This document shows, piece after piece, positions 9,141-29,897 of a stretch of DNA of 64,000 bases. The number at the start of each line of letters is the position of its first letter. Position 1 is the first letter of the stretch. Source of the DNA: Actinomycetota bacterium (GTDB lineage: Bacteria > Actinomycetota > Geothermincolia > Geothermincolales > RBG-13-55-18); NCBI GenBank assembly GCA_013178005.1, contig JABLXL010000002.1, forward strand, positions 79,220 to 143,219. The letters are read 5' to 3'. The notes under the pieces are model-generated. The model was not told where the DNA came from, made no database searches, and saw only the letters and a list, made by a program, of their open reading frames with translations. Position numbers and translations under genes: made by a program.

Positions 9141-9309
9141 ATAACGCCTTCCGCGCGTGACGAGGACTTCACCGGGGACTCAGAGGTCTTTGGATACAGG
9201 CCTCGGGCCTTCGGTTAAATATATGTCTAAAAACGGCCTTGCGGCTGTGAAATGCGGTGAAGGAGACGCCCGAAAACCGTCAACACAGGAAGAGGAAAGG
9301 AGTTGCAGC

Positions 9310-11013
9310 ATGGTTCCGAGCGACCTGGAAATCGCGCAAGCGGCGGAGCTCCTGCCCATCATGGAGATCGCCAAGAAGATGGGCCTGGAGGAAGACGAGA
9401 TCGATCTCTACGGCAAGTACAAGGCCAAGATCGACTTCGAGCGCTTCCTGGAAAGGGTGAAGGACAAGCCTAACGGCAAGTACATCGACGTGACGGCCAT
9501 CACCCCCACCCCCCTGGGAGAGGGCAAGACCGTGACCTCCATTGGCCTAACCGAGTCCCTGGCCAAGATCGGCAAGAACGTGGTGCTCGCGCTGCGGGAG
9601 CCCTCCCTGGGCCCGGTCTTCGGCATCAAGGGCGGGGCCGCCGGCGGGGGCTATTCCCAGGTGGTGCCCATGGAGGACCTCAACCTCCACTTCACCGGGG
9701 ACATCCACGCCGTTGGGGCGGCCAACAACCTGCTGGCGGCGATGATCGACACCAGCATCCTGCTGGGCAACCCGCTGAACATCGATCCCTTGACCATCTC
9801 CTGGAGAAGGGTGGTCGACATCAGCGACCGCGCCCTCCGCGACATCGTCATAGGACTGGGCGGGCGGGAGAACGGCTACCCGCGCCAGACCGGCTACGAC
9901 ATCACCGTGGCCTCGGAGGTAATGGCCATCCTGGCCCTGGCAACCAGCCTCAAGGACTTGAGGGAGCGCCTGGGCCGCATCGTGGTCGCCTATACCTACG
10001 ACGGAAAGCCGGTGACCGCCGAGGACCTCAAGGCGGCGGGCGCCATGACCGTGCTTCTCAAGGAGGCGCTCAAGCCCAACCTCATCCAGACCCTCGAGCA
10101 TAACCCCTGCATCATGCACGCGGGACCCTTCGCCAACATCGCCCACGGCAACAACTCCATCGTGGCCGATTACGTCGCTCTGAAGTGCGGCGACTACGTG
10201 GTCACGGAGTCCGGTTTCGGCGCCGACATGGGGGCGGAGAAGATGATGAACATCAAGTGCCGCTATTCCGGCCTCACCCCGGATTGCGTGGTCATCACCT
10301 GCACCATCCGCGCCCTCAAAATGCACGGCGGCGCCTTCGAGGCACGTCCCGGCAAGCCCCTCGACGAGGAGCTGGTGAAGAAGGAGAACATGCCGGCGCT
10401 CGAGGAGGGCACGGGGAACCTCATCAAGATGATAGAGAACATGAAGCTCTTCGGCCTCCCCGTGGTGGTGACCATAAACAGGCGCACCACCGACATGGAC
10501 AAGGAGATCGAGCTGGTCAAGAAGCTCGCCGAGGAGGCAGGCGTGGTGGCCTGCTGCCCCATCGAGGTATGGGCAAAGGGCGGCGAGGGCGGCAAGGAGG
10601 CCGCGGAGGCGGTGGTGGCCGCCTGCGACCAGCCCAAGGACTTCAAGTTCCTCTACCCCGACGACGCCTCCATCAAGGAGAAGATCGAGGCCATCGCCAC
10701 CAAGATCTACGGGGCGGACGGGGTGGACTACACCCCCCTCGCCGAGCAGAAGATCAAGCAGTACACCGAGGCCGGCTACGACAAGCTGCCCATCTGCATG
10801 GCAAAGACCCATCTCTCCCTCTCCCACGACCCCAACCTCAAGGGCGTTCCCAAGGGGTTCCGGCTTCCCGTGGTGGACATCAGGCCCTCCATCGGTGCCG
10901 GGTTCCTCTACCCGCTTTGCGGCGCCATGAGGACCATGCCCGGTCTGCCCAGCCGTCCGGCGGCGGTGGACGTGGACATCGACGAGAACGGGAGGACCAT
11001 GGGGTTGTTCTAA
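9310..11013 (+). CDS. fhs: Formate-tetrahydrofolate ligase
   Basis: 567 residues, normal for the family. It makes 10-formyl-THF from formate, THF and ATP, the ATP-consuming step of the methyl branch. The P-loop TPLGEGKTVT lies at 67-76, followed by the highly conserved EPSLGPVFGIKGGAAGGG segment and, later, HGNNSIVAD and TESGFGADMGAEK. The frame is open to 9157, but the ATG at 9310 has AAAGGAG about 8 bases upstream and starts the conserved N-terminus. First gene of the Wood-Ljungdahl cluster. The downstream gene starts 95 bases later, after a stem-loop. Identification is essentially certain. Confidence 0.97.
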   Translation: MVPSDLEIAQAAELLPIMEIAKKMGLEEDEIDLYGKYKAKIDFERFLERVKDKPNGKYIDVTAITPTPLGEGKTVTSIGLTESLAKIGKNVVLALREPSLGPVFGIKGGAAGGGYSQVVPMEDLNLHFTGDIHAVGAANNLLAAMIDTSILLGNPLNIDPLTISWRRVVDISDRALRDIVIGLGGRENGYPRQTGYDITVASEVMAILALATSLKDLRERLGRIVVAYTYDGKPVTAEDLKAAGAMTVLLKEALKPNLIQTLEHNPCIMHAGPFANIAHGNNSIVADYVALKCGDYVVTESGFGADMGAEKMMNIKCRYSGLTPDCVVITCTIRALKMHGGAFEARPGKPLDEELVKKENMPALEEGTGNLIKMIENMKLFGLPVVVTINRRTTDMDKEIELVKKLAEEAGVVACCPIEVWAKGGEGGKEAAEAVVAACDQPKDFKFLYPDDASIKEKIEAIATKIYGADGVDYTPLAEQKIKQYTEAGYDKLPICMAKTHLSLSHDPNLKGVPKGFRLPVVDIRPSIGAGFLYPLCGAMRTMPGLPSRPAAVDVDIDENGRTMGLF

Positions 11014-11108: not shown

Positions 11109-13094
11109 TTGGCGGATGAAAACTGCAGGGTGCTCTTCCTGCCCGACAATAGGTTCGTGACCGTCGCCAGGGGCGAGATCCTTCTGCGCGCGGCCATGGA
11201 CGCGGACGTGCACATCAACGCCTCATGCGGCGGCTCGGGGTCATGCGGCAAGTGCCGGGTGCTCATCGAGGAAGGGGAGGTGGAGCGGGAACCGAATCCG
11301 AAGCTGAGCGAGGCCGAGGCCGCCAGGGGTTACGCCCTGGCCTGCCAGACCCGCGTGCTTTCGGACCTCAAGGTCACCATCCCTCTGGAGTCACGCATCG
11401 GGGACAAGCGTATCTTCGAGCGCGCCGAGCCCACCCCCGCGCATGGTTACCTCCTCTCGGCCGCGGACTGGGAGGAGCGCCTTCCCGCATGGGAACTGGA
11501 TCCCCCGACTCGCAAGTACCACCTGGTGCTGCCCCAGCCTTCCCTCGACGACAACGCCAGCGACGCCGAGCGCATCAAGCGCGGCCTGGCGGTGGAAGCC
11601 GGACTGCGCGACGTGGTCATCGATTACCCGGTGCTGCAACGCCTGCCCAACATGATCCGCCAGAGCGACTGGGACATCACGGTGACGGTGCTCGATTCCG
11701 GCGAGGAGCTGAGGGCGGTGCGCATCGAGCAGGGCGACACCACGGAGAGGCAGTCGGCCATCGCCATCGACGTCGGCACCACCACCATCTCCGCGGAGCT
11801 CATCGACCTGCGCACCGGCGAGGTCACCGCGCGGGCCTCCGACTACAACGCCCAGGTGGCCTTCGGGGAGGACGTCATCACCCGCATCATCTACGCCATC
11901 CGGGGAACCGGGCTGGCTAAGCTGCAGTCGGTGGTGGTGGGAACGATATGGAACCTCATCAAGAGCCTGGTGGAGCAGGCCGGGATCGAGTACTGCAATA
12001 TCACCCACGTGGTGATCGCGGGCAATACCACCATGACCCACCTGCTGCTGGGCCTGAACCCCAAGTACATACGCGAGGAGCCCTATATCCCGTCGGCGAC
12101 GTTCTTCCCCTGGATAAAGTGCTCCGACATCGGGCTGCGCATCGCCGCCGGCGTTTACCTGTATGCCCTTCCCTGCGTTGCCTCCTACGTGGGAGGGGAC
12201 ATCGTCGCGGGCATGCTTGCCTCGGGGATCTTTAACACCGACAAGCTTACCCTGTACATCGACATCGGCACCAACGGGGAGATGGTCCTGGGCAACCGCG
12301 ACTGGATGCTCTCTTGCTCGTGCTCGGCCGGCCCGGCCTTCGAGGGAGGGGGTGTCAAGCACGGCATGCGCGCCACCAACGGCGCCATCGAGCAGGTGCG
12401 CATCGACAAGATAGGGTACGAGCCCATGATCATCACCGTGGGCAACCGCAAGCCCATCGGCATATGCGGCTCGGGGCTCATAGACGCCCTCTCGGAGATG
12501 TTCCTCACCGGGGTTATCAACGAGAAGGGCAAGATAAACACCGACCTTCCCACGCCGCGCGTGCGCAGGCGCGAGGGAGGAGCCGAGTACGTGCTGGTGT
12601 GGGCGGAGGACTCCGCCACGCGCCGCGACATCGTCATCACCGAGGTGGACATAGACAACCTCATGCGCGCCAAGGCGGCGGTATACGCGGGCATAGAGAT
12701 CCTCCTATCCTCCATGGACATGGACGTTTCCATGATCGATGAGCTGCTCATCGCGGGCGCGTTCGGCCGCTACCTGGAGGTGGACAAGGCGGTGACCATT
12801 GGATTGTTGCCCGACATCGGTTACGAGAAGATCAAGTTCGTGGGCAACGGTTCCCTGCTGGGCGCGCACCTCTCTGCCCTTTCGCGGGAGATGCTCAACA
12901 AGGCCAACGAGATCGCCCACCAGATGACCTACCTCGAGCTTTCCATGAACCCCGCCTTCATGGAGCATTACATTTCCGCCCTCTTCTTCCCCCATACCGA
13001 CCTGAATGCTTTCCCCAGCGTGAAAGAGAAGCTGGAGGCCTACCGCTCGGTGCAGAGGATGGCGGCCCGGGATAAGGTCGGAGAGGAGGGATAG
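11109..13094 (+). CDS. acsV: Corrinoid-protein reductive activator (RACE / AcsV)
   Basis: 661 residues. The N-terminal 2Fe-2S ferredoxin domain has C40, C46, C49 and C79 (C-x5-C-x2-C-x29-C). A linker is followed by an ASKHA-type ATPase region beginning with AIDVGTTTISAEL near 218 and containing IDIGTNGEMVLG and AGAFGRYLE (DUF4445 family). RACE proteins use ATP hydrolysis to drive electrons into the corrinoid iron-sulfur protein, restoring Co(I) after accidental oxidation. The start is TTG at 11109, supported by GGAGG seven bases upstream. Only four bases separate it from cooC. The placement beside the CODH/ACS genes fits the role in maintaining the AcsCD methyl carrier. Confidence 0.92.
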   Translation: MADENCRVLFLPDNRFVTVARGEILLRAAMDADVHINASCGGSGSCGKCRVLIEEGEVEREPNPKLSEAEAARGYALACQTRVLSDLKVTIPLESRIGDKRIFERAEPTPAHGYLLSAADWEERLPAWELDPPTRKYHLVLPQPSLDDNASDAERIKRGLAVEAGLRDVVIDYPVLQRLPNMIRQSDWDITVTVLDSGEELRAVRIEQGDTTERQSAIAIDVGTTTISAELIDLRTGEVTARASDYNAQVAFGEDVITRIIYAIRGTGLAKLQSVVVGTIWNLIKSLVEQAGIEYCNITHVVIAGNTTMTHLLLGLNPKYIREEPYIPSATFFPWIKCSDIGLRIAAGVYLYALPCVASYVGGDIVAGMLASGIFNTDKLTLYIDIGTNGEMVLGNRDWMLSCSCSAGPAFEGGGVKHGMRATNGAIEQVRIDKIGYEPMIITVGNRKPIGICGSGLIDALSEMFLTGVINEKGKINTDLPTPRVRRREGGAEYVLVWAEDSATRRDIVITEVDIDNLMRAKAAVYAGIEILLSSMDMDVSMIDELLIAGAFGRYLEVDKAVTIGLLPDIGYEKIKFVGNGSLLGAHLSALSREMLNKANEIAHQMTYLELSMNPAFMEHYISALFFPHTDLNAFPSVKEKLEAYRSVQRMAARDKVGEEG

Positions 13095-13098
13095 TAGG

Positions 13099-13857
13099 AT
13101 GTCCTACGTCATCGCGGTTTCGGGCAAGGGCGGCACGGGCAAGACCACCTTCGCGGCGCTCTCCGTGGCCTACCTGGTGCGGGTCACGGGAAAGGCGGTG
13201 CTGGCGGTGGACGCCGACTCCAATGCCAACCTGGACTACGCCCTGGGCACCAGGGTCGAAAAGACCATCGGCGCGGTGAGGGAGTACCTCACCGAGAACA
13301 TCAAGAACATGCCCGCGGGCATGTCCAAGGAGGTCTGGGTGGAGACGCTCCTGCAGCAGGCCCTGGTGGAGGAGAAAGGGTTCGACCTCATCTCCATGGG
13401 GAGGCCGGAGGGCCCCGGGTGCTACTGCTACCTTAACAACATCTTCCGCCGTTACCTCGACCTCATGACCGGTCGCTACGACTACGTGGTCATGGACAAC
13501 GAGGCGGGAATGGAGCACCTCTCGCGGCGCACCACCACCGGGGTGGACGTGATGTTCATCGCCTCCGACCCCACGGTCAGGGGGGTGCAGACTGCCCTGC
13601 GCATCCGCGACCTGGCGCGGGAGCTTAAGCTGGACATCAGGCGCATGGCCCTGGTGATATCCAGGGTGCGGGACGGCCTTCCGGAAAACCTCCGCGGCAT
13701 CGCGGAGGAGGGAAACCTGGAGATCGCCGGATGGGTGCCCGACGACGACCTGCTGCGGGACTACGACGAGTCGGGGAAGGCGCTGACGGATCTTCCCCAG
13801 GAGAGCCCCGCCCGGAGGGCGATCGAGGGGATACTGGAGGATTATGTCAAGAGGTGA
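13099..13857 (+). CDS. cooC: CooC/AcsF-type nickel-insertion ATPase for CODH/ACS
   Basis: 252 residues, MinD/ParA-like P-loop ATPase. The deviant Walker A GKGGTGKT spans 9-16, the switch I aspartate lies in VDADSNANL, and a C-x-C pair (C108, C110 in GPGCYCYLNN) matches the metal-binding CXC of CooC. These dimeric ATPases bind nickel and help load the C-cluster of CO dehydrogenase (CooC) or the A-cluster of ACS (AcsF). ATG preceded by GGAGG. It follows acsV by four bases and is separated by 189 bases from fchA, where a second promoter may lie. Confidence 0.92.
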   Translation: MSYVIAVSGKGGTGKTTFAALSVAYLVRVTGKAVLAVDADSNANLDYALGTRVEKTIGAVREYLTENIKNMPAGMSKEVWVETLLQQALVEEKGFDLISMGRPEGPGCYCYLNNIFRRYLDLMTGRYDYVVMDNEAGMEHLSRRTTTGVDVMFIASDPTVRGVQTALRIRDLARELKLDIRRMALVISRVRDGLPENLRGIAEEGNLEIAGWVPDDDLLRDYDESGKALTDLPQESPARRAIEGILEDYVKR

Positions 13858-14019: not shown

Positions 14020-14046
14020 CATAATTTGGACCGGGGAGGTCTGACG

Positions 14047-14673
14047 ATGTACGTAGAGAAGCCCATGATCGTATTTCTGGACAAGCTAGCCTCCAGGTCG
14101 CCGGAGCCGGGCGGTGGCTCGGTATCAGCCCTGGTGGGCGCGCTGGGAGCCGCCCTGGTTTCCATGGTGGGAAACCTGACCCTGGGAAAGGAAAAATACG
14201 CCGACGTCCAGGACCAGGTGGAGGAACTTCTGAAATCATCCGAGAAGGCCCGCGATCAGCTTCAGGGTTTGATCCAGAAAGACACCGAGGTATACGCGGA
14301 CGTTTCCGCCGCTTTCAAGATGCCCCGCGACACCGAGGAGCAGAAAGCGGAGCGCGCGGCCCGCGTGCAGGAAGCGCTGAAGCTCGCCACCGAGGTGCCC
14401 TTCGAGATCGCCGAGAAATGCCTGGAGGTGGCGCGCCTGTCGGAGACGGCGGCCGAGATAGGCAACGTGGGAGCCGTGAGCGACGCCGGGGTGGCGGTGC
14501 TGCTCGCGGAGGCCGCGGCCCAGAGCGCGGCCCTCAACGTGAAGATAAACATCAACGGAATCGAGGACGTCGCCTTCTGCGAAGGCAAATGGTCGCGCAT
14601 CCAGGAGATCCTTGAGGAGACGGCGGAGCTCCGCGACCGCGTGGTGAGAGTCACCTACGAGAAGCTGGGCTGA
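14047..14673 (+). CDS. fchA: Methenyl-THF cyclohydrolase / formiminotransferase-cyclodeaminase family
   Basis: 208 residues, the normal length of stand-alone FchA. The helical cyclodeaminase-like fold begins with the family motif SPEPGGGSVSAL and includes a conserved GNVGAVSDAGVAV segment. FchA interconverts 10-formyl-THF and 5,10-methenyl-THF, the second step of the methyl branch. ATG at 14047 preceded by GGGGAGG; an upstream TTG at 14026 in the same frame is less likely. It stands immediately before folD, as in several acetogens. Its activity matters here because the adjacent FolD lacks the lysine that normally catalyses the cyclohydrolase reaction. Confidence 0.9.
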   Translation: MYVEKPMIVFLDKLASRSPEPGGGSVSALVGALGAALVSMVGNLTLGKEKYADVQDQVEELLKSSEKARDQLQGLIQKDTEVYADVSAAFKMPRDTEEQKAERAARVQEALKLATEVPFEIAEKCLEVARLSETAAEIGNVGAVSDAGVAVLLAEAAAQSAALNVKININGIEDVAFCEGKWSRIQEILEETAELRDRVVRVTYEKLG

Positions 14674-14706
14674 TTTCCCGGCGAGGAAAGGAAAGGAGCG
14701 AGGGAA

Positions 14707-15645
14707 ATGACGGTGGTCATCGATTGCGTAGCCATCGGCGACGAGTTGATGAAGGAGATCATCGCGGAAACCGAGGCCCTGAAGGCAAAGGGCATAACCC
14801 CCGGTATCGCAACCCTTCTGGTGGGGGACGATTTCGGAGCCAAGATGTACCGCGGGCAGGTGGAGAAGTTCTGCGAGGAGGCGGGGTTCGCCTACATCAA
14901 CGAGAACCCCCCCGCGGACGTGAGCGAGGAAGAGGTGGTAGAGATCGTCAAGCGCCTCAACGCCGACAAGGCGGTGAGCGGGATACTTCCCTTGCGCCCC
15001 TTCCCGGAGCACATCTCGGACAGCGCGGTGATCAACTCCATCGACGTGAACAAGGACATCGACTGCTTCCATCCCTTCAACATGGGAAAGCTGGCCCTGG
15101 GCGAGCCCACCTTCCCTCCCGCCACCCCCTCGGCGGTGATCGAGATCCTCGACCGCTACGCCAAGGAAGTAAAGAAGATGGATCCCAAGGATTTCTACGA
15201 GGGGGCCGAGGTGTGCGTGGTGGGACACTCCAACATCGTGGGCAAACCGGTGGCCTTCCTCATGCTTAACCGCAACGCCTCCACCACCGTGGTGCACGTT
15301 TTCACCTCCATGAAGGGCAACCTGGAGAAGCACACCAAGGCCGCGGACATCCTGGTGGTGGCGGCCGGCAAGGCGGACCTCATCGGCCCCGACCAGGTGA
15401 AGGAGGGGGCCATCGTGGTGGACGTGGGCATCAACCGCGTCAAGGTGCTGGACGAGAAGGGCGAGCCGGTGCTCAACGAGAAGGGCAAGCCCAAGACCAA
15501 GACGGTGGGCGACGTCTCCTTCGACGCGGTCAAGGACATGACCGAGGCCATCACCCCGGTCCCCGGCGGAGTGGGCTCGGTGACCAACCGCATGCTGATG
15601 AAGAACGCCCTGCGCGCCTGCAAGCTGCAGCACGGCCTGGAATGA
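14707..15645 (+). CDS. folD: Methylene-THF dehydrogenase (FolD family), cyclohydrolase residues altered
   Basis: 312 residues, slightly longer than usual. The FolD fold is clear: GKP and VVGHSNIVGKP in the dinucleotide-binding domain, KDIDCFHPFN, DVGINR and the closing PVPGGVG. The residue aligning with the essential cyclohydrolase lysine (E. coli K54) is Val52 in MYRGQVEKFC, and the glutamine of the QLPLP motif (E. coli Q98) is Leu96 in GILPLRPFP; the aspartate (E. coli D121) is kept as D119. I therefore infer a monofunctional dehydrogenase oxidising or forming methylene-THF, with FchA doing the cyclohydrolase step. A short lysine-rich insertion (about 258-276) precedes GDVSFDAV. ATG with GGAAAGGAG upstream. 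Confidence 0.9.
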   Translation: MTVVIDCVAIGDELMKEIIAETEALKAKGITPGIATLLVGDDFGAKMYRGQVEKFCEEAGFAYINENPPADVSEEEVVEIVKRLNADKAVSGILPLRPFPEHISDSAVINSIDVNKDIDCFHPFNMGKLALGEPTFPPATPSAVIEILDRYAKEVKKMDPKDFYEGAEVCVVGHSNIVGKPVAFLMLNRNASTTVVHVFTSMKGNLEKHTKAADILVVAAGKADLIGPDQVKEGAIVVDVGINRVKVLDEKGEPVLNEKGKPKTKTVGDVSFDAVKDMTEAITPVPGGVGSVTNRMLMKNALRACKLQHGLE

Positions 15646-15721
15646 CGTCCGACAAGGTTCGCGGAAGCGGATAGTAATAATATTGATCACGGCGGTTATA
15701 AGCAGCGGAAAGGAGAGAAGA

Positions 15722-16663
15722 ATGGCATTCAATCTACCGACGGAGACGGCCAAGGGCAAGGTCCGCGAGGTAGAGCTGGGAGCCGGCGACAAGGCAAGGA
15801 AGGTGGGAGGAGAGAACGTGCTCCCCTTCCACCTCTGGGAAGGTGAGATGCCCAATAGGCCCATCGTCGCCGCCGAGGTCTCCGACGAGGTCGGGGAACT
15901 GGTGCCGGCGCTGGAGAAGGCCCTGGGCGAGGTGAAGAACGACCCCGTGGCCTGGGCCAAGAAAGCGGTTGAGGAGTGGGGCGCGGACGCCATATTCCTC
16001 CTGCTCACCTCAACCGACCCCAAGGCAACCGACGCCCCCGCTGAGCAGGCGGCGGAGACGGTGCTCAAGGTGGAGGAAGCGGTCAACGTCCCGGTGATCG
16101 TTTACGGCACCGAGGATCTGGACAAGGACGCGGAGATCGCCAGGGTGGTGGCCACCAAGGCCGAGGGCAAGAACCTGCTCATCGGACCGGCCAAGGAGGA
16201 GAACTTCAAGAAGGTTGGCGCGCCCGCCATCGGCTACAAGCAGACGGTGGCCGGCATGACCCCCATCGACGTCAACCTGGCCAAGCAGCTCAACATTCTC
16301 CTCACCAACCTGGGCATGGAGGCGGAGAAACTGGTCATCGACCCCACCACCGGCGCCCTGGGCTACGGCCTGGAGTACACCTACTCGGTGATGGAGCGCC
16401 TGAAGATCGCCGGGCTTTTCCAGGACGACTCCATGACCCAGATGCCCATGCTGGCCAACATCGGCACCCAGGCCTGGAAGACCAAGGAGGCCAAGAGCTC
16501 CGAGGAGGAGTACCCGGAGTGGGGCGACCCCGAGAAGCGCGGCATCATGTGGGAGACCATCACCGCCGTGGCCCTGCTCCTGGCCGGGGCGGACATCCTG
16601 GTGCTCAGGCACCCCGAGTCCATCCGCCTGGTGAAACAGCTTATAGCCGACCTTTCGGGCTAG
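15722..16663 (+). CDS. acsD: CODH/ACS corrinoid iron-sulfur protein, small subunit
   Basis: 313 residues, TIM-barrel small subunit of the CoFeSP (AcsD / CdhD). Together with AcsC it carries the methyl group on cobalt between methyl-THF (via AcsE) and the ACS A-cluster. The sequence shows the family's LPFHLWEGEMPNRP opening, LLTSTDPKATDA, a DPTTGALGYGLEYTYSVMER segment and TQAWKTKEAK. ATG at 15722 with GGAGAG upstream; a GTG at 15683 in frame is less likely. Note the short opening region before the barrel is lysine/glutamate-rich. It precedes acsA with 65 bases holding two inverted repeats. Confidence 0.93.
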   Translation: MAFNLPTETAKGKVREVELGAGDKARKVGGENVLPFHLWEGEMPNRPIVAAEVSDEVGELVPALEKALGEVKNDPVAWAKKAVEEWGADAIFLLLTSTDPKATDAPAEQAAETVLKVEEAVNVPVIVYGTEDLDKDAEIARVVATKAEGKNLLIGPAKEENFKKVGAPAIGYKQTVAGMTPIDVNLAKQLNILLTNLGMEAEKLVIDPTTGALGYGLEYTYSVMERLKIAGLFQDDSMTQMPMLANIGTQAWKTKEAKSSEEEYPEWGDPEKRGIMWETITAVALLLAGADILVLRHPESIRLVKQLIADLSG

Positions 16664-16728: not shown

Positions 16729-18666
16729 ATGGCAGAACTGGAGGAAATGACGGCGTGCGAAGCCACGCTGGAAATGCTTAGAAAAGCCAAGGAGGAGGGG
16801 CAGGAGACCGCCTTCGACCGCGTGCAGCAGCAGAAAGGGTGCGCCTTCGGAGAGGCGGGAAGCTGCTGCCGCATCTGCAACATGGGACCCTGCCGTATCA
16901 ACCCCAAGAAGCCCGACGAGAGCCGGGGGGTATGCGGAGCCAACATCGACACCATCGTGGCGCGCAACTTCGCGCGCATGGTGGCGGGGGGTTCCTCCGC
17001 CCACTCCGACCACGGGCGAGCGGTGGCCGAGACCCTGATCATGGCCGCCAAGGGCGAGACGACGGACTACCAGATCAAGGACCGTGTCAAGCTCCTGGAG
17101 GTGGCGGCGGACCTGGACATCGAGATCGGCGACAGGGACATCAACGACATCGCCCTGGAGGTGGGCGAGCGATGCCTGGCCATGTTCGGGCAGCAGGAGG
17201 GCGAGCTGGCCTTCGCCCTGCGGGCGCCCGAGAAGCGCAAGGAGATATGGCGCCAGCGCGGGGTCTTCCCGCGCGGCATCGACCGCGAGGTGGTGGAGGT
17301 CATGCACCGCACCTCCATCGGGGTCGACCAGGACTATGAGAACATCCTCAAGGGCGCCGAGCGCTGCGCGCTTTCCGATGGGTGGGGCGGCTCCATGATC
17401 GGCACCGAGCTGCAGGACATCCTCTTCCAGACCCCGGTGCCCCTGGAGAGCAAGATCAACCTGGGCGTGCTCAAGGAGGACGAGGTCAACATCATCGTCC
17501 ACGGGCACGAGCCCATCCTCTCGGAGATGATCGTGCTCGCCGCCAGCCTGCCGGAGATGCAGGAGAAGGCGGAGAAGGTGGGCGCCAAGGGGATCAACCT
17601 CTCGGGCATCTGCTGCACCGCCAACGAGGTGCTCACCCGCCACGGGGTGCCCATCGCCGGCAACGTGCTGCAGCAGGAGCTGGCCCTCTTGACCGGTGCG
17701 GTGGAGGCCATGGTGGTGGACGTGCAGTGCGTGTACCAGGGCATCGGGCAGATAGCCAGTTGCCTGCACACCGACATCATCACCACCTCCCCCAAGGCCA
17801 AGATGCCCTACGCGAGGCACATCGAGTTCCACGAGGACCATGCCCTGGACATCGCCAAGGAGATAGTCTCCGCGGCCATCGACAACTTCCCCAAGCGAGG
17901 CAAGGTGAGCATCCCCGAAAACACGGAGTCGCTCATCGCCGGCTTCAACCACGAGTACATCAATTACATGCTGGGCGGGAAGTACCGCGCCTCCTACCGC
18001 CCCCTGAACGACGCCATCATCGACGGCCGCATCCGCGGCGTGGTGGGCGTGGTGGGCTGCAACAACCCCCGCGTCAAGCACGACGACATCCACGTCAGGG
18101 TGACCAGGGAGCTCATCGCCAACGGCTGCCTGGTGGTTATGACCGGATGCGCCGCGCAGTCGGTGGCCAAGGCGGGGCTCATGCTCCCCGAGGTGGCGCG
18201 CGAGATCTGCCCCCAGGGACTGTGGGAGGTCTGCGAGGCGGTGGGAATACCGCCGGTGCTCCACGCCGGTTCATGCGTGGACAACAGCCGCATCCTCATG
18301 TCCCTCACCGCCATGGTGCAGGAGGGCGGCCTGGGCGACGACATCAGCGACCTGCCGGCGGCGGGTTGCGCTCCGGAGTGGATGAGCGAGAAGGCCATCT
18401 CCATCGGAGAGTACTTCGTGGTTTCTGGAGCGGCCGTGGTCTTCGGAGTGAGCTGGCCCACCCTGGGCTCGAAGAACGTGACCGAACACCTGTTCGAGAA
18501 GTACAACGAGATATACAAGAACAGCTGGCACTTCGAGCCGGACCCGGAGAAGATGGTGGGCAAGCTCCTCACCCTCATCGATAGCAAGCGCGAGGCCCTG
18601 GGCATATCCGCCAAGCGCGAGAGGGTGCTCTACGACATGGCCATGAGGAGGGAGTTGGAGATCTAA
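16729..18666 (+). CDS. acsA: Ni-dependent carbon monoxide dehydrogenase catalytic subunit
   Basis: 645 residues. It reduces CO2 to CO at the Ni-Fe-S C-cluster and delivers CO to AcsB. The N-terminal cysteines C38 and C46 (D-cluster) and C47, C50, C55 and C69 (B-cluster) have exactly the spacing of Moorella CODH. Later conserved segments include GICCTANEV, VQCVYQG and VGVVGCNNPR, plus MTGCAAQS, consistent with C-cluster ligation. ATG preceded by GGAGGAAC. Its stop overlaps the acsB start by one base (TAATG), so the two subunits are probably translationally coupled, in keeping with the CODH/ACS complex. Also known as cooS in stand-alone enzymes. Confidence 0.96.
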   Translation: MAELEEMTACEATLEMLRKAKEEGQETAFDRVQQQKGCAFGEAGSCCRICNMGPCRINPKKPDESRGVCGANIDTIVARNFARMVAGGSSAHSDHGRAVAETLIMAAKGETTDYQIKDRVKLLEVAADLDIEIGDRDINDIALEVGERCLAMFGQQEGELAFALRAPEKRKEIWRQRGVFPRGIDREVVEVMHRTSIGVDQDYENILKGAERCALSDGWGGSMIGTELQDILFQTPVPLESKINLGVLKEDEVNIIVHGHEPILSEMIVLAASLPEMQEKAEKVGAKGINLSGICCTANEVLTRHGVPIAGNVLQQELALLTGAVEAMVVDVQCVYQGIGQIASCLHTDIITTSPKAKMPYARHIEFHEDHALDIAKEIVSAAIDNFPKRGKVSIPENTESLIAGFNHEYINYMLGGKYRASYRPLNDAIIDGRIRGVVGVVGCNNPRVKHDDIHVRVTRELIANGCLVVMTGCAAQSVAKAGLMLPEVAREICPQGLWEVCEAVGIPPVLHAGSCVDNSRILMSLTAMVQEGGLGDDISDLPAAGCAPEWMSEKAISIGEYFVVSGAAVVFGVSWPTLGSKNVTEHLFEKYNEIYKNSWHFEPDPEKMVGKLLTLIDSKREALGISAKRERVLYDMAMRRELEI

Positions 18667-20852
18667 TGAGTAGGATAATCGCAACCGCGGCAATCAAGGG
18701 GGCCTACAAGGAGGTGGCCGAGGCCGAGCGCGTGTTCAACGAGACGCTCGAGTCCGCCGGCGCCACCGCGAAGGTGGAGCTCCCCAACACGGGCTATTAC
18801 CTGCCCATCATCTACGCCCTCACCGGCCACAAGGTGGAGAAGGTGGAGGACATGGCCAAGGCCCTGGAGCTGGCCAAGGACCTGTTGCCGCCCGTGCCGA
18901 AGGCAAGGCACTGGGTGCCCTACCTGGGGCACGCCCTGGACGCGGGCATCGCCACCCTCTTCGCCGGGGAGATCATCGAGGGATGCAAGTACGTCACCAA
19001 CCCCCCCGTGGATGACCTCTGGCTGGGGGCGGCCGACGACGTGATCATGCGCGAGCGCGGGGTGGAATTCGTGGACGGTTCCGCCCCCGGGTTCTGCGCC
19101 CTGGTGGGCCGCGCCTCCACGCCGGAGATGGCGGACCAGATCGTGGTGGAGCTGCTGCAGAAGAACCTCTACGTGTGGATCTCCGGCCACGTGGACGGAG
19201 AGAGCATCGCCGAGCAGCTCCAGCAGGTGGACCGCCAGCTCGGTTGGGACACCCGCATCGTGCCCTACGGCAAGGAGATGTCCTCCGCGGTGTACTCACT
19301 GGGGTTCGCCGCCCGCGCCGCCATGTCCTTCGGCGGCGCCCAGCCCGGCGATTTCACCAAGATCCTGCGCTACAACAAGAACCGCATCTTCGCCTTCGTG
19401 CTGGCGCTGGACTACGTGGACGAGCAGAAGTACGCCTACGCGGCGGGGGCCATAAACTACGGCTTCCCCACCATCGCCAACACCAAGATCCCGGACATTC
19501 TCCCCACCGGAGTGTGCACCTACGAGCACGTGGTGGGAAGCGTCCCCGAGGAGGAGATCGTCCAGAAGTGCGTGGAGGTAAGGGGCCTCAAGATCCAGAT
19601 CGCCGAGATCCCCATCCCCATGGCCTACGGCCCCGCCTTCGAGGGCGAGGTCATCCGCAAGGACGACATGTACGTCCAGTTCGGCGGGAACATCACCCCC
19701 GCCTTCGAGTACGTGACCATGCGGGAGATGGACGAGATCACCGACGGCGTCATCGAGGTGGTGGGTCCGGAGATCGACGACGTCAACGAGGGCGACGCCC
19801 TGCCCCTGGGCATCGTGGTGGAGGTGGCCGGGCGCAAGATGCAGGAGGACTTCGAGTCCATCCTTGAGCGCCAGATCCACCACCTCATCAACGGCGCCGA
19901 GGGCATCTGGCACATGGGCCAGCGCGACATCGTGTGGACGCGCATCTCCAAGAAGGCCCAGGCCAAGGGGTTCAAGATCCGCCACTACGGCGAGATCATC
20001 CACGCCAAGCTGATCAACGACTTCCCCTCCATCGTGGACAAGGTGCAGGTGACCATCTACACCAACCCCGAGGACGTGGAGAAGTGGCTGGCCACGGCGC
20101 GCCAGGCCTACCGTTACCGCGACGAGAAGACGGCGGGGATGACCGATGAGTCGGTGGACACCTTCTACTCCTGCACCCTGTGCCAGTCCTTCGCCCCCAC
20201 CCACGTGTGCATCATCTCGCCCCAGAGGCTGGGGCTGTGCGGCGCCTACAACTGGCTGGACGGCAAGGCCGCCTACGAGATCGACCCCACCGGACCCAAC
20301 CAGCCGGTGAAGAAGGGAGACTGCACCGATCCGGTGAAGGGCGAATGGCCGGCCATCAGCGAGTTCGTGAAGGAGAAGTCCGGCGGCAACGTGGAGAACG
20401 TCAAGATGTACACCATGATGGAGGACCCCATGACCTCGTGCGGGTGCTTCGAGTGCATCGTGGCCTTCCTGCCCATGTGCAACGGGGTGATGATCGTCAA
20501 CCGCGAGTATTCGGGGATGACCCCGAGCGGCATGCCCTTCTCCACCCTTGCCAACTCGGTGGGCGGCGGCAACGTCACCCCCGGGTTCATCGGCATCGGC
20601 AAGGTGTACATCACCTCCAAGAAGTTCATCTCCGCGGACGGGGGCTTCAAGCGCATCGTGTGGATGCCCAAGGAGCTCAAGGAGACCCTCAAGGAGCAGC
20701 TGGAGAAGCGCTGCCAGGACGATGACGTCAACGACCCGGACTTCATCAACAAGATCGCCGACGAGGATGTGGGCACCAGCGAGGAGGAGATCCTCCCCTG
20801 GCTGGAGGAGAAGGGACATCCCGCCCTCACCATGGACCCGATGCTGATGTAG
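18666..20852 (+). CDS. acsB: Acetyl-CoA synthase subunit of CODH/ACS
   Basis: 728 residues, matching the full-length bacterial ACS (archaeal CdhC is shorter). It condenses CO, the corrinoid methyl group and CoA into acetyl-CoA at the Ni-Ni-Fe4S4 A-cluster. The A-cluster cysteines are all present: C503, C506, C515, C525, and the C-G-C pair C592 and C594, each exactly three positions below the Moorella numbering. The N-terminal region is the CO-tunnel and CODH-contact domain. The ATG overlaps the acsA stop. A strong GC hairpin follows directly after its stop, before acsC. Confidence 0.97.
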   Translation: MSRIIATAAIKGAYKEVAEAERVFNETLESAGATAKVELPNTGYYLPIIYALTGHKVEKVEDMAKALELAKDLLPPVPKARHWVPYLGHALDAGIATLFAGEIIEGCKYVTNPPVDDLWLGAADDVIMRERGVEFVDGSAPGFCALVGRASTPEMADQIVVELLQKNLYVWISGHVDGESIAEQLQQVDRQLGWDTRIVPYGKEMSSAVYSLGFAARAAMSFGGAQPGDFTKILRYNKNRIFAFVLALDYVDEQKYAYAAGAINYGFPTIANTKIPDILPTGVCTYEHVVGSVPEEEIVQKCVEVRGLKIQIAEIPIPMAYGPAFEGEVIRKDDMYVQFGGNITPAFEYVTMREMDEITDGVIEVVGPEIDDVNEGDALPLGIVVEVAGRKMQEDFESILERQIHHLINGAEGIWHMGQRDIVWTRISKKAQAKGFKIRHYGEIIHAKLINDFPSIVDKVQVTIYTNPEDVEKWLATARQAYRYRDEKTAGMTDESVDTFYSCTLCQSFAPTHVCIISPQRLGLCGAYNWLDGKAAYEIDPTGPNQPVKKGDCTDPVKGEWPAISEFVKEKSGGNVENVKMYTMMEDPMTSCGCFECIVAFLPMCNGVMIVNREYSGMTPSGMPFSTLANSVGGGNVTPGFIGIGKVYITSKKFISADGGFKRIVWMPKELKETLKEQLEKRCQDDDVNDPDFINKIADEDVGTSEEEILPWLEEKGHPALTMDPMLM

Positions 20853-22412: not shown

Positions 22413-23078
22413 ATGATCATCACCACATCGAAGCCCTTCGAGGAGGTGCTCAAGGAACTCGAGGGCCAGGACAAGGTGTTCATCGTCGGCTGCGGCTCAT
22501 GCGCCACCACCTGCGAGACGGGTGGGGAGCCGCAGGTGGCCGAGATGAAGGCCAAGCTCGAGGCGGAGGGAAAGACGGTGACCGGCACCGTCGTTTACGA
22601 GGAAGTCTGCCACGAGCTCAACACCAAGCGGAAGTTCCGCGAGAACAAGGAAGCGGTGGAGGCCGCCGACGGCTTCCTGGTCATGTGCTGCGGGGCGGGT
22701 TGCCAGTCGGTGCGCGAGGCTACCGAGAAGGAAGTGCATCCTGCCTGCGACACCGTGTTCCTGGGCAACATCCTGCGCCAGGGGCAGTTCGTGGAGAAGT
22801 GTTCCCTGTGCGGTGACTGCGTGCTCGAGGACTTCGGGGCGATCTGCCCCGTGACCCGTTGCCACAAGGGCATCCTCAACGGACCCTGTGGCGGCACCGA
22901 CGAGGGCAAGTGCGAGACGGACAAGGAAAAGGACTGCGGCTGGACCCTCATCTACAACCAGCTTGAGAAGTTGGGCAAGCTCGACCGTTTCAAGCGCATC
23001 TACGGCCTCAAGAACTGGCAGGCGAGCATGAAGCCGGGCCGGGTGATCTTCGAGCGCAAGGGCGAAGGGGGTGAATAG
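22413..23078 (+). CDS. metV: MetV: zinc-binding subunit of methylene-THF reductase
   Basis: 221 residues, matching the 'methylenetetrahydrofolate reductase C-terminal domain-containing' MetV family. It is cysteine-rich: VGCGSCATTC near the start, EEVCHEL, MCCGAGC, then CSLCGDC, CPVTRC, GPCGG and a final C before DCGW. MetV partners with the flavoprotein MetF in acetogens and helps transfer electrons for reduction of methylene-THF to methyl-THF. ATG preceded by GGAGGAACG. The stop falls one base before the metF ATG (an alternative GTG would overlap), strongly suggesting a MetVF complex. No RnfC2, HdrA or MvhD partner gene is adjacent, so the physiological electron donor cannot be read from context. 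Confidence 0.92.
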   Translation: MIITTSKPFEEVLKELEGQDKVFIVGCGSCATTCETGGEPQVAEMKAKLEAEGKTVTGTVVYEEVCHELNTKRKFRENKEAVEAADGFLVMCCGAGCQSVREATEKEVHPACDTVFLGNILRQGQFVEKCSLCGDCVLEDFGAICPVTRCHKGILNGPCGGTDEGKCETDKEKDCGWTLIYNQLEKLGKLDRFKRIYGLKNWQASMKPGRVIFERKGEGGE

Positions 23079-23079
23079 C

Positions 23080-24009
23080 ATGACTCTGCTTTTCGACAAA
23101 CACGCCAAGCCCAGCATCCAGGAGGTCATGGAGTCCGGCAAGTTCCTCATCACCGGCGAGATCGGGCCCCCAAAGGGCACGGACATCGACGAGATGATCC
23201 ACCACATCGACCTGCTCAAGGACAAGGTCCATGCCATGAACATCACCGACAACCAGTCCTCGGTGATGCGCTATCCCTCCCTGGGCACGGCCCTGATCAT
23301 CCTGGAGCGCGGTGGTGAGCCCAACCTGCAGGTCACCTGCCGCGATCGCAATCGCCTGGCCATCGAGGCCGACCTGCTCTTCGCCTACACCCGCGGCGTG
23401 CGCAGCGTGCTCTGCCTCACAGGGGATTCCGTCCCCGTGGGAGACCACAAGGAGGCCAAGGGCGTCTTCGATTGCGAGAGCGTGCAGCTCCTGCAGATCA
23501 TCCGCAACATGGAGGAGGGCCGTGACTCGGGCGGCAACGAGCTGCAGGGCGGCGTGAAGTTCTACAAAGGCGCCATCGTCACCCCTGAGGCCGACCCCAT
23601 CGAGCCCCAGATGCTCAAGTTCGAGAAGAAGATCGAGGCGGGGGCGCAGTGGTTCCAGACCCAGGCCGTCTATGACATGGACAACTTCAAGCGCTTCATG
23701 GAGAGAGCGCGCAAGATCAACGACAAGGTGAAGATCTGCGCCGGCCTGGTGCTGCTCACCTCCATGGGCGCCATCCGATACATGAACGCCAATGTGCCTG
23801 GTGTATTCGTCCCCGATAACCTGGTCAAGGAGATGGCGGATGCCCCTAAGGGCGAGGCCCTCAACACCGGCATCAGGATCATGGCGCGCCAGATCCGCCA
23901 GTGCATAGACGAAAAGCTCTGCGACGGCGTGCACATCATGGCCATCGGGAAGGAAGATGTCGTTCCCAAGATACTGGAAGAGGCCGGGGTGGACATCACC
24001 AAGATGTAA
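23080..24009 (+). CDS. metF: 5,10-methylene-THF reductase (MetF)
   Basis: 309 residues, FAD-dependent TIM barrel. ITGEIGPPKGTD carries the catalytic Glu region, and ITDNQSSVMRYPS, LQVTCRDRNR (THF-site D/R) and LCLTGDSV are family signatures. It reduces methylene-THF to methyl-THF, the last step of the methyl branch before transfer to the corrinoid protein. I choose the ATG at 23080, spaced correctly from GGGGGTG; a GTG at 23071 overlapping metV is possible. Sits directly after metV. After its stop there is a short gap with a REP-like hairpin. Confidence 0.93.
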   Translation: MTLLFDKHAKPSIQEVMESGKFLITGEIGPPKGTDIDEMIHHIDLLKDKVHAMNITDNQSSVMRYPSLGTALIILERGGEPNLQVTCRDRNRLAIEADLLFAYTRGVRSVLCLTGDSVPVGDHKEAKGVFDCESVQLLQIIRNMEEGRDSGGNELQGGVKFYKGAIVTPEADPIEPQMLKFEKKIEAGAQWFQTQAVYDMDNFKRFMERARKINDKVKICAGLVLLTSMGAIRYMNANVPGVFVPDNLVKEMADAPKGEALNTGIRIMARQIRQCIDEKLCDGVHIMAIGKEDVVPKILEEAGVDITKM

Positions 24010-27584: not shown

Positions 27585-28106
27585 ATGAATGAAGAAGCCT
27601 GTCAGTGCAAGCAGAGGTTCGCGGATGTGAACGACCTCGGTCCGCTGGAGGAGATCCTCGAGCGCTACCGTGAAGAGAAAGGGGCACTCATACCCCTGCT
27701 GCAGGACGCCCAGGAGGCTTACGGCTACCTGGACGAGAAGATCATGCGCGCCCTGGCCAGGGGCGCGGGCTACCAGCTCAGCCAGGTCTACGGCGTGGCC
27801 ACCTTCTACACCCAGTTCAGGCTGGAGCCCATCGGAGAGCACCTCATCCGCGTCTGCCACGGCACCGCCTGCCACGTGGCGGGGGCCGAGCTCATCTCCG
27901 AGGAGATCTCCAACCTCCTGGGGATCAAGGACGGGCAGACCACCGAGGACATGAAGTTCACCCTGGAATCGGTGATGTGCGTGGGCGCCTGCTCCCTGTC
28001 TCCCATCATGATCGTGGACGAGGACACCCACGGCAAGCTCAAGCCCGCCAACGTGCGCAAGGTGCTCAAGCGTTACATGGGCGATACCGGGGAGGCGGAA
28101 GAATGA
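27585..28106 (+). CDS. NuoE/HydC-like [2Fe-2S] subunit of formate dehydrogenase
   Basis: 173 residues. Thioredoxin-like 2Fe-2S domain with C91-x4-C96 (CHGTACHVAGA) and C132-x3-C136 (CVGACSLSP), as in NuoE, HydC and HndA. An N-terminal helical part (LEEILERYREEKGALIPLLQ) is typical. It relays electrons to or from the flavin subunit encoded next. ATG at 27585 with GAGGTGG upstream; an upstream GTG at 27522 is possible but precedes non-family sequence. The stop overlaps the next start (ATGA), so the subunits are translationally coupled. Confidence 0.88.
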   Translation: MNEEACQCKQRFADVNDLGPLEEILERYREEKGALIPLLQDAQEAYGYLDEKIMRALARGAGYQLSQVYGVATFYTQFRLEPIGEHLIRVCHGTACHVAGAELISEEISNLLGIKDGQTTEDMKFTLESVMCVGACSLSPIMIVDEDTHGKLKPANVRKVLKRYMGDTGEAEE

Positions 28107-29887
28107 GCGGCAACGGCAAGGCCAAGCTAGTCCTGGGCTACGGCACCTGCGGTATCGCCGCCGGGGCCAACGCGGTGAAGGAGGCCCTGGAGAGCGAGCT
28201 GGCTAGCGGGAAATACCCCGCATTCCTGGACATCGCCGGCTGCATGGGCTTTTGCTTCCGCGAGCCCATCGTCGAGGTCACCACCCCGGACGGGAGGTCG
28301 GTGGTCTACGGAGACCTCACCCCCAAGCGGGTGCCCCAGCTCCTGCAGGCGCTGGCCGCGGGCGAGGTCATCGAGGACTGGGTGGTGAGGCGCTCCGATG
28401 ACCCCGCCGCGGGAGAGGGGGACTTCCTGGCCAACCAGCACCGCATCGTACTGCGCAACTGCGGCAACATCAACCCCGAGAGCATCCAGGAATACATCGG
28501 AGCCGGCGGGTACGAGGCGGCGCGCAAGGCGCTCACCTCCATGACCCCCGAAGAGCTCATCGACGAGGTCTCCAAGTCCGGCATCCGGGGCCGCGGCGGC
28601 GCGGGTTTCCCCACCGGCACCAAGTGGGGCTTCGCGCGCAAGGCGAAGGGCGACCAGAAGTACCTGGTGTGCAACGCCGATGAGGGCGACCCGGGCGCCT
28701 TCATGGACCGCAGCGTGCTTGAGGGCGACCCCCACTCGGTCATCGAGGGCATGATCATCGCCGGCTACGCCATCGGGGCCACCCAGGCATATATATACTG
28801 CCGCGCCGAGTACCCCCTGGCCCTGAAACGGCTGGAAATCGCCATCGCCGCCTGCCACGAGATGGGCTTCCTCGGCAAGGGCATCTTCGGCACCGACTGG
28901 GACTTCGACATCAAGATCAAGAAGGGGGCGGGAGCCTTCGTATGCGGCGAGGAGACGGCGCTCATCGCCTCCATCGAGGGCAAGCGGGGCATGCCGCGCC
29001 CGCGGCCGCCATTCCCCGCCAACGAGGGGCTGTGGGGAAAACCCACCAACATCAACAACGTGGAGACCCTGGCGGCCATCCCCTGGATCATCGCCAACGG
29101 CGGGGATAAGTACGCCTCCATAGGCACGGAGAAGAGCAAGGGGACCAAGGTCTTCTGTCTGGCGGGAAAGATCCGCCGCAGCGGCCTCGCCGAGGTGCCC
29201 ATGGGATATACCCTGCGCCAGGTCATCTTCGACGTCGGCGGGGGGGTGAGAGAGGGCAAGGAGTTCAAGGCGGTGCAGATGGGAGGCCCCTCCGGGGGGT
29301 GCCTGCCCGCCAGCCTCCTGGACACCCTGGTGGATTACGAGGCCATCACCGCCACCGGCGCCATCATGGGCTCCGGGGGCATGATCGTGGCCGACTCCTC
29401 CACCTGCATGGTGGACCTGGCGCGTTACTTCCTCTCCTTCACCCAGGAGGAGAGCTGCGGCAAGTGCGTTCCCTGCCGCATCGGCACCAAGCGCATGCTG
29501 GAGATCCTTGCCCGCATCTGCGAGGGGAAGGGAGAGCCGGAGGATATCGAGAGGCTGGAGACCCTGGCCGGGGACATCAAGGCGGCCAGCCTTTGCGCCC
29601 TGGGGGGGACGGCCCCCAACCCCGTGCTCACCACCCTCAAGTACTTCCGCAACGAGTACGAGGACCACATCCTGCGCGGCAAGTGCACCGCCGGGGTGTG
29701 CCCGGCGCTGATCACCGTGATCATCGACCAGGATACCTGCACCGGCTGCGGGGCATGCGCCAAGGTGTGCCCGGTGGAGGCCATCAGCGGGGAGAAGAAG
29801 CAGCCCCACTCCATCGACGCCGCAAAGTGCATCCGGTGCAAGCTCTGCGTGAGCCGCTGTCCGGAAGAGGCCATCTACACGGAATGA
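28103..29887 (+). CDS. NuoF/HydB-like NAD(P)H-binding flavoprotein subunit
   Basis: 594 residues in four parts: an N-terminal thioredoxin-like Fe-S domain (GTCGIAAGA, then GCMGFC), the NuoF FMN/NADH domain (RGRGGAGFPTGTKWGF and the ADEGDPGAFMDR loop), an SLBB-like part with a 4Fe-4S site (ESCGKCVPCRIGTKRML), and two C-terminal ferredoxin clusters (CTGCGACAKVCP and CIRCKLCVSRCP). This is the HydB/HndC layout found in electron-bifurcating hydrogenases and formate dehydrogenases, so it probably exchanges electrons with NAD(P) and perhaps ferredoxin. ATG overlaps the preceding stop; fdhA starts 10 bases after its own stop. Confidence 0.9.
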   Translation: MSGNGKAKLVLGYGTCGIAAGANAVKEALESELASGKYPAFLDIAGCMGFCFREPIVEVTTPDGRSVVYGDLTPKRVPQLLQALAAGEVIEDWVVRRSDDPAAGEGDFLANQHRIVLRNCGNINPESIQEYIGAGGYEAARKALTSMTPEELIDEVSKSGIRGRGGAGFPTGTKWGFARKAKGDQKYLVCNADEGDPGAFMDRSVLEGDPHSVIEGMIIAGYAIGATQAYIYCRAEYPLALKRLEIAIAACHEMGFLGKGIFGTDWDFDIKIKKGAGAFVCGEETALIASIEGKRGMPRPRPPFPANEGLWGKPTNINNVETLAAIPWIIANGGDKYASIGTEKSKGTKVFCLAGKIRRSGLAEVPMGYTLRQVIFDVGGGVREGKEFKAVQMGGPSGGCLPASLLDTLVDYEAITATGAIMGSGGMIVADSSTCMVDLARYFLSFTQEESCGKCVPCRIGTKRMLEILARICEGKGEPEDIERLETLAGDIKAASLCALGGTAPNPVLTTLKYFRNEYEDHILRGKCTAGVCPALITVIIDQDTCTGCGACAKVCPVEAISGEKKQPHSIDAAKCIRCKLCVSRCPEEAIYTE

Positions 29888-29897
29888 GGAGGTCGGA

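Follow-up and report, generated by a model that had tools for sequence, protein, structure and literature searches.

The locus raises the question of whether its FolD still catalyzes both reactions of the usual bifunctional enzyme, or whether the cyclohydrolase step has passed to the product of the neighboring fchA gene. According to the original prediction, the E. coli FolD residues K54 and Q98, known to be needed for cyclohydrolase activity, are replaced by Val52 and Leu96, D121 and the dehydrogenase motifs remain, and fchA, located 33 bases upstream, makes up for the loss, so that the bifunctional enzyme is functionally split.

Genomic context

The window, i.e. the whole stretch of 64,000 nucleotides that was analyzed, belongs to a 3.6-Mb draft genome (97% complete) of an acetogen-like actinobacterium. 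Among named genomes, MAGs of Candidatus Solincola (Geothermincolia, Actinomycetota) are its closest relatives. Its Wood-Ljungdahl cluster is encoded on the + strand in the order fhs, acsV, cooC, fchA, folD, acsD, cooS, acsB, acsC-like, metV and metF, with the acsC-like gene assigned by position alone. The following features were used:

9157..11013, + strand, fhs, formate-THF ligase (NF010030 827 bits, cut-off 652)
11109..13094, + strand, acsV/RACo-type corrinoid activation protein (family/domain profile matches)
13099..13857, + strand, cooC-like MinD/ParA ATPase (weak family matches and operon position)
14047..14673, + strand, fchA (PF04961 228 bits; NF045657 239 bits; PDB 7vg4 180 bits)
14674..14706, + strand, fchA-folD gap of 33 bases with an AGGAG-type ribosome-binding site
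14707..15645, + strand, folD, ORF of 312 aa, predicted dehydrogenase-only 5,10-methylene-THF dehydrogenase (PF00763/PF02882; alignment to 1B0A; structure)
15683..16663, + strand, acsD/cdhD, corrinoid Fe-S protein small subunit (NF003376 over cut-off)
16729..18666, + strand, cooS, CO dehydrogenase catalytic subunit (TIGR01702 over cut-off)
18666..20852, + strand, acsB, acetyl-CoA synthase (NF040764 over cut-off)
22413..24009, + strand, metV and metF, methylene-THF reductase (PF12225, PF02219)

The true start of fhs is probably downstream of GTG 9157. For fchA, ATG 14047 is a better start than the listed TTG 14026, with a ribosome-binding site (GGGGAGG) at 14033-14039. The predicted spacing of 33 bases was confirmed, with the last base of fchA at 14673 and the first of folD at 14707. 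The genome contains one FolD; a second copy elsewhere was rejected after a genome search found none. Likewise, fchA is the sole FchA-family (FTCD_C) gene of the genome. Its product scored 239.2 bits over the full profile of the NCBIfam equivalog NF045657, below the cut-off of 275 bits, which is an annotation threshold and not a biological feature. Because of this score, the product was called FchA-like by sequence and context and not by NF045657.

Electron-transfer genes follow the cluster at 27977-32633 (NuoF-like, then FdhA-like with a NuoG-type N-terminus) and suggest a formate dehydrogenase complex linked to NAD(P). At 29898-32633, a formate dehydrogenase-like molybdopterin gene was listed as two ORFs separated by an in-frame TGA (30963-30965). 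With this codon read as selenocysteine, one frame of 911 residues is obtained, containing CARLUHSS, which resembles the FdhA selenocysteine motif. An Rfam scan of window positions 8000-36000 gave no match and no SECIS family.

Active-site residues of FolD

Both Pfam domains of FolD scored above the curated cut-offs (PF00763 97.1 bits, PF02882 177.7 bits), which places the protein in the FolD family. Residues were numbered by alignment to E. coli FolD 1B0A (38% identity), which is gap-free in the active-site region. Three segments are relevant:

14848..14862, + strand, part of the active-site helix, Y48 (E. coli Y50, kept) through V52
14980..15006, + strand, GILPLRPFP motif replacing GILVQLPLP
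15052..15075, + strand, KDIDCFHP motif with D119 (E. coli D121, kept; codon GAC 15061-15063)

The position of E. coli K54 is occupied by V52 (codon GTG 14860-14862) and that of Q98 by L96 (codon TTG 14992-14994). The catalytic lysine and the QLPLP glutamine, the two residues by which bifunctional FolDs were recognized, are thus both lost, and D119 is present as predicted. Adjoining L96, a new conserved arginine is found (R97, 14995-14997). Another lysine at the active site, which would have spoken against the original prediction, was looked for in the alignment, and no replacement was found in the active-site helix of K-less FolDs. The lysine at position 54 of the window protein itself, two residues past V52, also occurs in most bifunctional FolDs (0.78 K). 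A substitute lysine or a misalignment was therefore rejected, since the alignment is ungapped there and the helix holds no new conserved lysine.

An AlphaFold2 model (pLDDT 97; TM 0.85-0.92 to 1B0A) indicates that the normal FolD fold and the dehydrogenase motifs are kept, in line with the prediction. Comparison of folD with four close relatives gave a dN/dS of about 0.05-0.14, so the gene is constrained and not decaying; a pseudogene was rejected on account of this strong purifying selection. Sequencing error does not explain V52, because a change from V to K takes two base changes and the state recurs in dozens of independent assemblies; for the latter reason an assembly error was rejected for the V/L state (residues at the K54/Q98 positions) as a whole. 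In window-type FolDs, the nucleotide loop is longer by two residues (an insertion at positions 199-200).

Close relatives and copies in Bacillota

For comparison, close relatives with 59-97% FolD identity (Geothermincolia, Thermoleophilia-like and some Bacillota MAGs) were read, comprising L033-L082 from a scan of named genomes (at least 59% identity) and L003-L027 from the window's class and one further family. The proposed check for the same Val/Leu pair was positive: the K54 position is V in all relatives read, except for one G, and the Q98 position is always L. Across the alignment of the window's clade, V52 is found in 97% and L96 in 100%. Directly upstream of folD, fchA is present in every close relative whose contig reaches far enough; those without a visible upstream fchA (L018/L063, L069, L076) start at or near a contig edge. 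Whole-genome searches of 13 named relatives revealed no FolD other than the window type. Among family members, G199 has fchA but no FolD, its contig ending just after fchA, and G080 has neither.

Bacillota MAGs (L042-L060, of which L057 is an exception from Actinomycetota) encode FolDs 79-87% identical to that of the window. Their FchA is only about 40% identical to the window FchA, and no other Wood-Ljungdahl genes are nearby, whereas in Geothermincolia relatives fchA is flanked by cooC and folD within the Wood-Ljungdahl operon. In L042 (4108-5936), the fchA-folD pair is located between xseA/ispA-type and dxs/tlyA-type genes, a type of locus that often carries the ordinary folD of Firmicutes. 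Since this is a housekeeping locus without Wood-Ljungdahl genes, the split FolD would serve general folate metabolism in these MAGs. The pairing also indicates that the association of K-less FolD with an FchA persists when the FchA is from a different line. Together, the sequences suggest FolD gene replacement between Actinomycetota and Bacillota, in either direction; the pattern repeats in many MAGs, and contig mis-binning is possible in individual ones.

FolD type and neighboring fchA

For a wider survey, 192 distinct FolDs of Actinomycetota and Clostridia were sampled from genomes with and without FchA-family genes, partly picked by similarity to the window. A gene was scored as adjacent if an FchA-family gene was located at most 300 bases away on the same strand. 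K54 was lost in all 98 FolDs with an adjacent gene (97 without K54 and Q98, one without K54 only). Among the 94 others, 71 keep both residues, 22 have lost both, and one has Q at K54 with Q98 kept; conversely, none of the 71 FolDs keeping K54 and Q98 has an FchA-family neighbor. After thinning of similar sequences, 0 kept and 29 lost were counted with adjacent fchA, and 16 kept and 7 lost without (Fisher p=2e-8, a value which ignores remaining relatedness, the counts being phylogenetically non-independent).

K-less FolDs away from fchA were inspected by eye, leaving out L069 and L076. Their genomes either encode an FchA-family protein at another locus or have a second FolD with K54 and Q98 (K/Q), except for G278, which is 66% complete. 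In some genomes an FTCD_C gene coexists with a K/Q FolD (e.g. G071, G017, G367, G379), so that such a gene anywhere in the genome is no predictor of K54 loss, whereas adjacency is. The clostridial FolD with Q at K54 (L206, genome G380) is encoded about 43 kb from an FchA-family gene and is possibly an intermediate state. Judged by these residues, the FolD/FchA split occurs commonly among Clostridia that carry fchA and among other Actinomycetota, and it is not particular to acetogenesis.

Number of losses

A maximum-likelihood FolD tree was built without the columns of the trait. One K-less clade contains Clostridia and some Actinomycetota families (mostly A/F). The other is actinobacterial (V/L); besides the window type and its copies in Bacillota, it includes a second type, with D121E. 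A long-branched single row (L249, I/Q) is placed apart from both. One ancestral loss for all K-less FolDs is disfavored: none of 200 bootstrap trees contained a single K-less clade, and the AU test rejected such a clade (p=0.014) with 54 of the 57 K-less rows in the named group, three rows that were long or odd being omitted from it. Taken by themselves, the starred branches of the careful tree do not require two losses. Probably, K54 and Q98 were lost in at least two independent events, that of the window lineage being its own.

The replacing residues differ among clades (V/L, A/F, L/L). R97 and A143 are common to both loss clades in the alignment, a pattern that a single loss with a misled tree would explain as well. 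Fixed throughout the window's clade, R97 is also frequent in both other loss groups and absent from 41 of 41 K/Q FolDs. G143 is changed to alanine or serine along with K54 loss in both clades, a change absent from the aligned bifunctional FolDs. In the second K-less type of other Actinomycetota (L028, L031, L095-L114, L134-L140), D121 is changed to E, the nucleotide loop of several members contains an acidic residue (SCDVNT), and a normal FolD is sometimes found alongside.

A broader reading, which we regard as slightly more likely than not, is that loss of K54 and Q98 recurred convergently in association with fchA, with at least two origins, apolar replacements and gain of an arginine; that an fchA neighbor predicts a dehydrogenase-only FolD; and that a window-like version was exchanged between Actinomycetota and Bacillota, the latter having it beside a different FchA in a housekeeping locus.

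Proposed function and alternative explanations

We are highly confident that the window FolD is a dehydrogenase only and FchA the cyclohydrolase. The functional split that had been predicted is supported by the loss of K54 and Q98, the single FolD, the sole FchA-family gene next door and the 98/98 association. Published E. coli mutants fit the assumed need for both residues: K54N had no detectable cyclohydrolase and ~19% dehydrogenase activity, and Q98H ~1% and 8%, respectively (PMC5688156). From these activities, K54 is required for the cyclohydrolase but not the dehydrogenase of E. coli FolD. Counting against our reading, hydrolysis of methenyl-THF is partly spontaneous (PMC5688156), so that part of the flux needs no enzyme.

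Accepting the split, FolD would interconvert methylene-THF and methenyl-THF with pyridine nucleotide. Methenyl-THF and 10-formyl-THF would scarcely be interconverted by FolD, since it has lost the essential lysine and the site-positioning glutamine. The cyclohydrolase would come from FchA, whose gene lies immediately upstream in the Wood-Ljungdahl operon, and in the CO2-fixing direction the enzymes would act in the order Fhs, FchA, FolD, MetVF. What the analysis shows directly are the substitutions and that they are fixed, the single copy of each gene, the operon and the close association with fchA; the catalytic phenotypes of FolD and FchA are inferred.

Within this explanation, the substitutions may represent neutral drift without any gain, after FchA had made the FolD cyclohydrolase redundant. 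Redundancy by itself would be enough to loosen the constraint on K54 and Q98, and the variation of the replacing residues among clades agrees with this. We nevertheless regard drift as the lesser possibility, although a real one: V52 and L96 are (nearly) fixed in the window's clade and R97, A143 and V292 change alongside, which suggests remodelling of FolD. In addition, the C. perfringens FolD is reportedly a faster dehydrogenase than that of E. coli, which also counts against drift.

Alternatively, FolD might keep a reduced but useful cyclohydrolase, with R97 partly replacing K54 and FchA only adding capacity. The distribution of R97 and the retention of Y50 and D121 would be in keeping with this. 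We consider it improbable, as E. coli K54N shows no detectable cyclohydrolase activity despite intact Y50, Q98 and D121 (PMC5688156), the active-site helix contains no extra lysine, and fchA is never missing in the window's clade where contigs permit checking.

Least probable by a further step is that the neighboring FTCD_C protein is a formimino-THF cyclodeaminase of histidine/purine breakdown and that the genome manages by spontaneous hydrolysis without a true cyclohydrolase: the Pfam family does span both activities and the NCBIfam FchA score is below cut-off, but a formiminotransferase (FTCD_N) domain was not found in the genome, for which FTCD/histidine degradation was rejected, the best PDB match is the methenyl-THF cyclohydrolase FchA 7vg4 (180 bits, against 103 for FTCD and 87 for 1o5h), and Geothermincolia relatives share the position within the operon. 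The fchA product is thus very probably a methenyl-THF cyclohydrolase.

Comparison with known systems

Aluri et al. 2016 (Microbiology 162:145), whose study is cited in PMC7219735 and PMC11559097, are said to have found that C. perfringens FolD is a monofunctional dehydrogenase and FchA a cyclohydrolase, both being needed to replace E. coli FolD. Clostridium perfringens has separate fchA and folD genes, like the window. Clostridial FolDs beside fchA (that of C. perfringens not among them) are mostly A/F, also I/F, L/F and A/L, and belong to the other clade, whereas the window FolD is V/L, about 36-42% identical to the compared clostridial FolDs, and encoded in a full Wood-Ljungdahl operon. Saccharomyces MTD1 (1EDZ) is a monofunctional dehydrogenase and reportedly also lacks the lysine and the glutamine. 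It is eukaryotic and distant from the window FolD (38 bits), and close kinship with this fungal type was rejected for that reason. E. coli FolD (1B0A) and other bifunctional FolDs have the same fold and dehydrogenase motifs as the window FolD but keep K54 and Q98, and none was found beside fchA in the 192-FolD sample.

The second Actinomycetota type (here L028, L031, L095-L114) resembles the window FolD in having V, L or I at K54, L at Q98 and mostly R97, and is its sister clade (100/99 support for both together). It differs in that D121 is E and a second, bifunctional FolD is often present; no Wood-Ljungdahl operon was found in the short loci read.

As referenced in PMC7793690, NAD-dependent methylene-THF dehydrogenases were purified from Clostridium formicoaceticum and Acetobacterium woodii (Moore 1974, Ragsdale 1984), and the C. 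formicoaceticum cyclohydrolase is separate from the dehydrogenase (Clark 1982). The A. woodii gene order is fhs1-fchA-folD-rnfC2-metVF (PMC10472528). These acetogen dehydrogenases, purified as enzymes separate from a cyclohydrolase, resemble the arrangement proposed for the window but come from a different phylum. Splitting of the two steps between FolD and FchA is an established kind of arrangement with experimental precedent, of which the window FolD is a new and probably independently evolved case.

Implications for annotation

Merino et al. 2020 described fch as absent in clades UBA1414, UBA9087 and RBG-13-55-18 and concluded from this apparent absence that their FolD is bifunctional, like that of Moorella (PMC7325909). 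Their figure legend has an ftcD gene (PMC7325909), which may be the fchA discussed here. The Candidatus Solincola sediminis RBG_16 MAG (L039) carries fchA and a V/L FolD in the operon. The Geothermincolia sequences, that of L039 included, argue against a bifunctional FolD without fch in related actinobacteria (PMC7325909); L039 may be one of their two Rifle genomes, and Geothermincolia may correspond to their clade RBG-13-55-18. Window-type FolDs match only NCBIfam models named 'bifunctional', all below cut-off, and pathway reconstructions can therefore overlook an indispensable fchA. The K54/Q98 rule provides a simple test for correcting FolD annotations, and the repeated loss of both residues is a natural experiment on why one enzyme becomes two.
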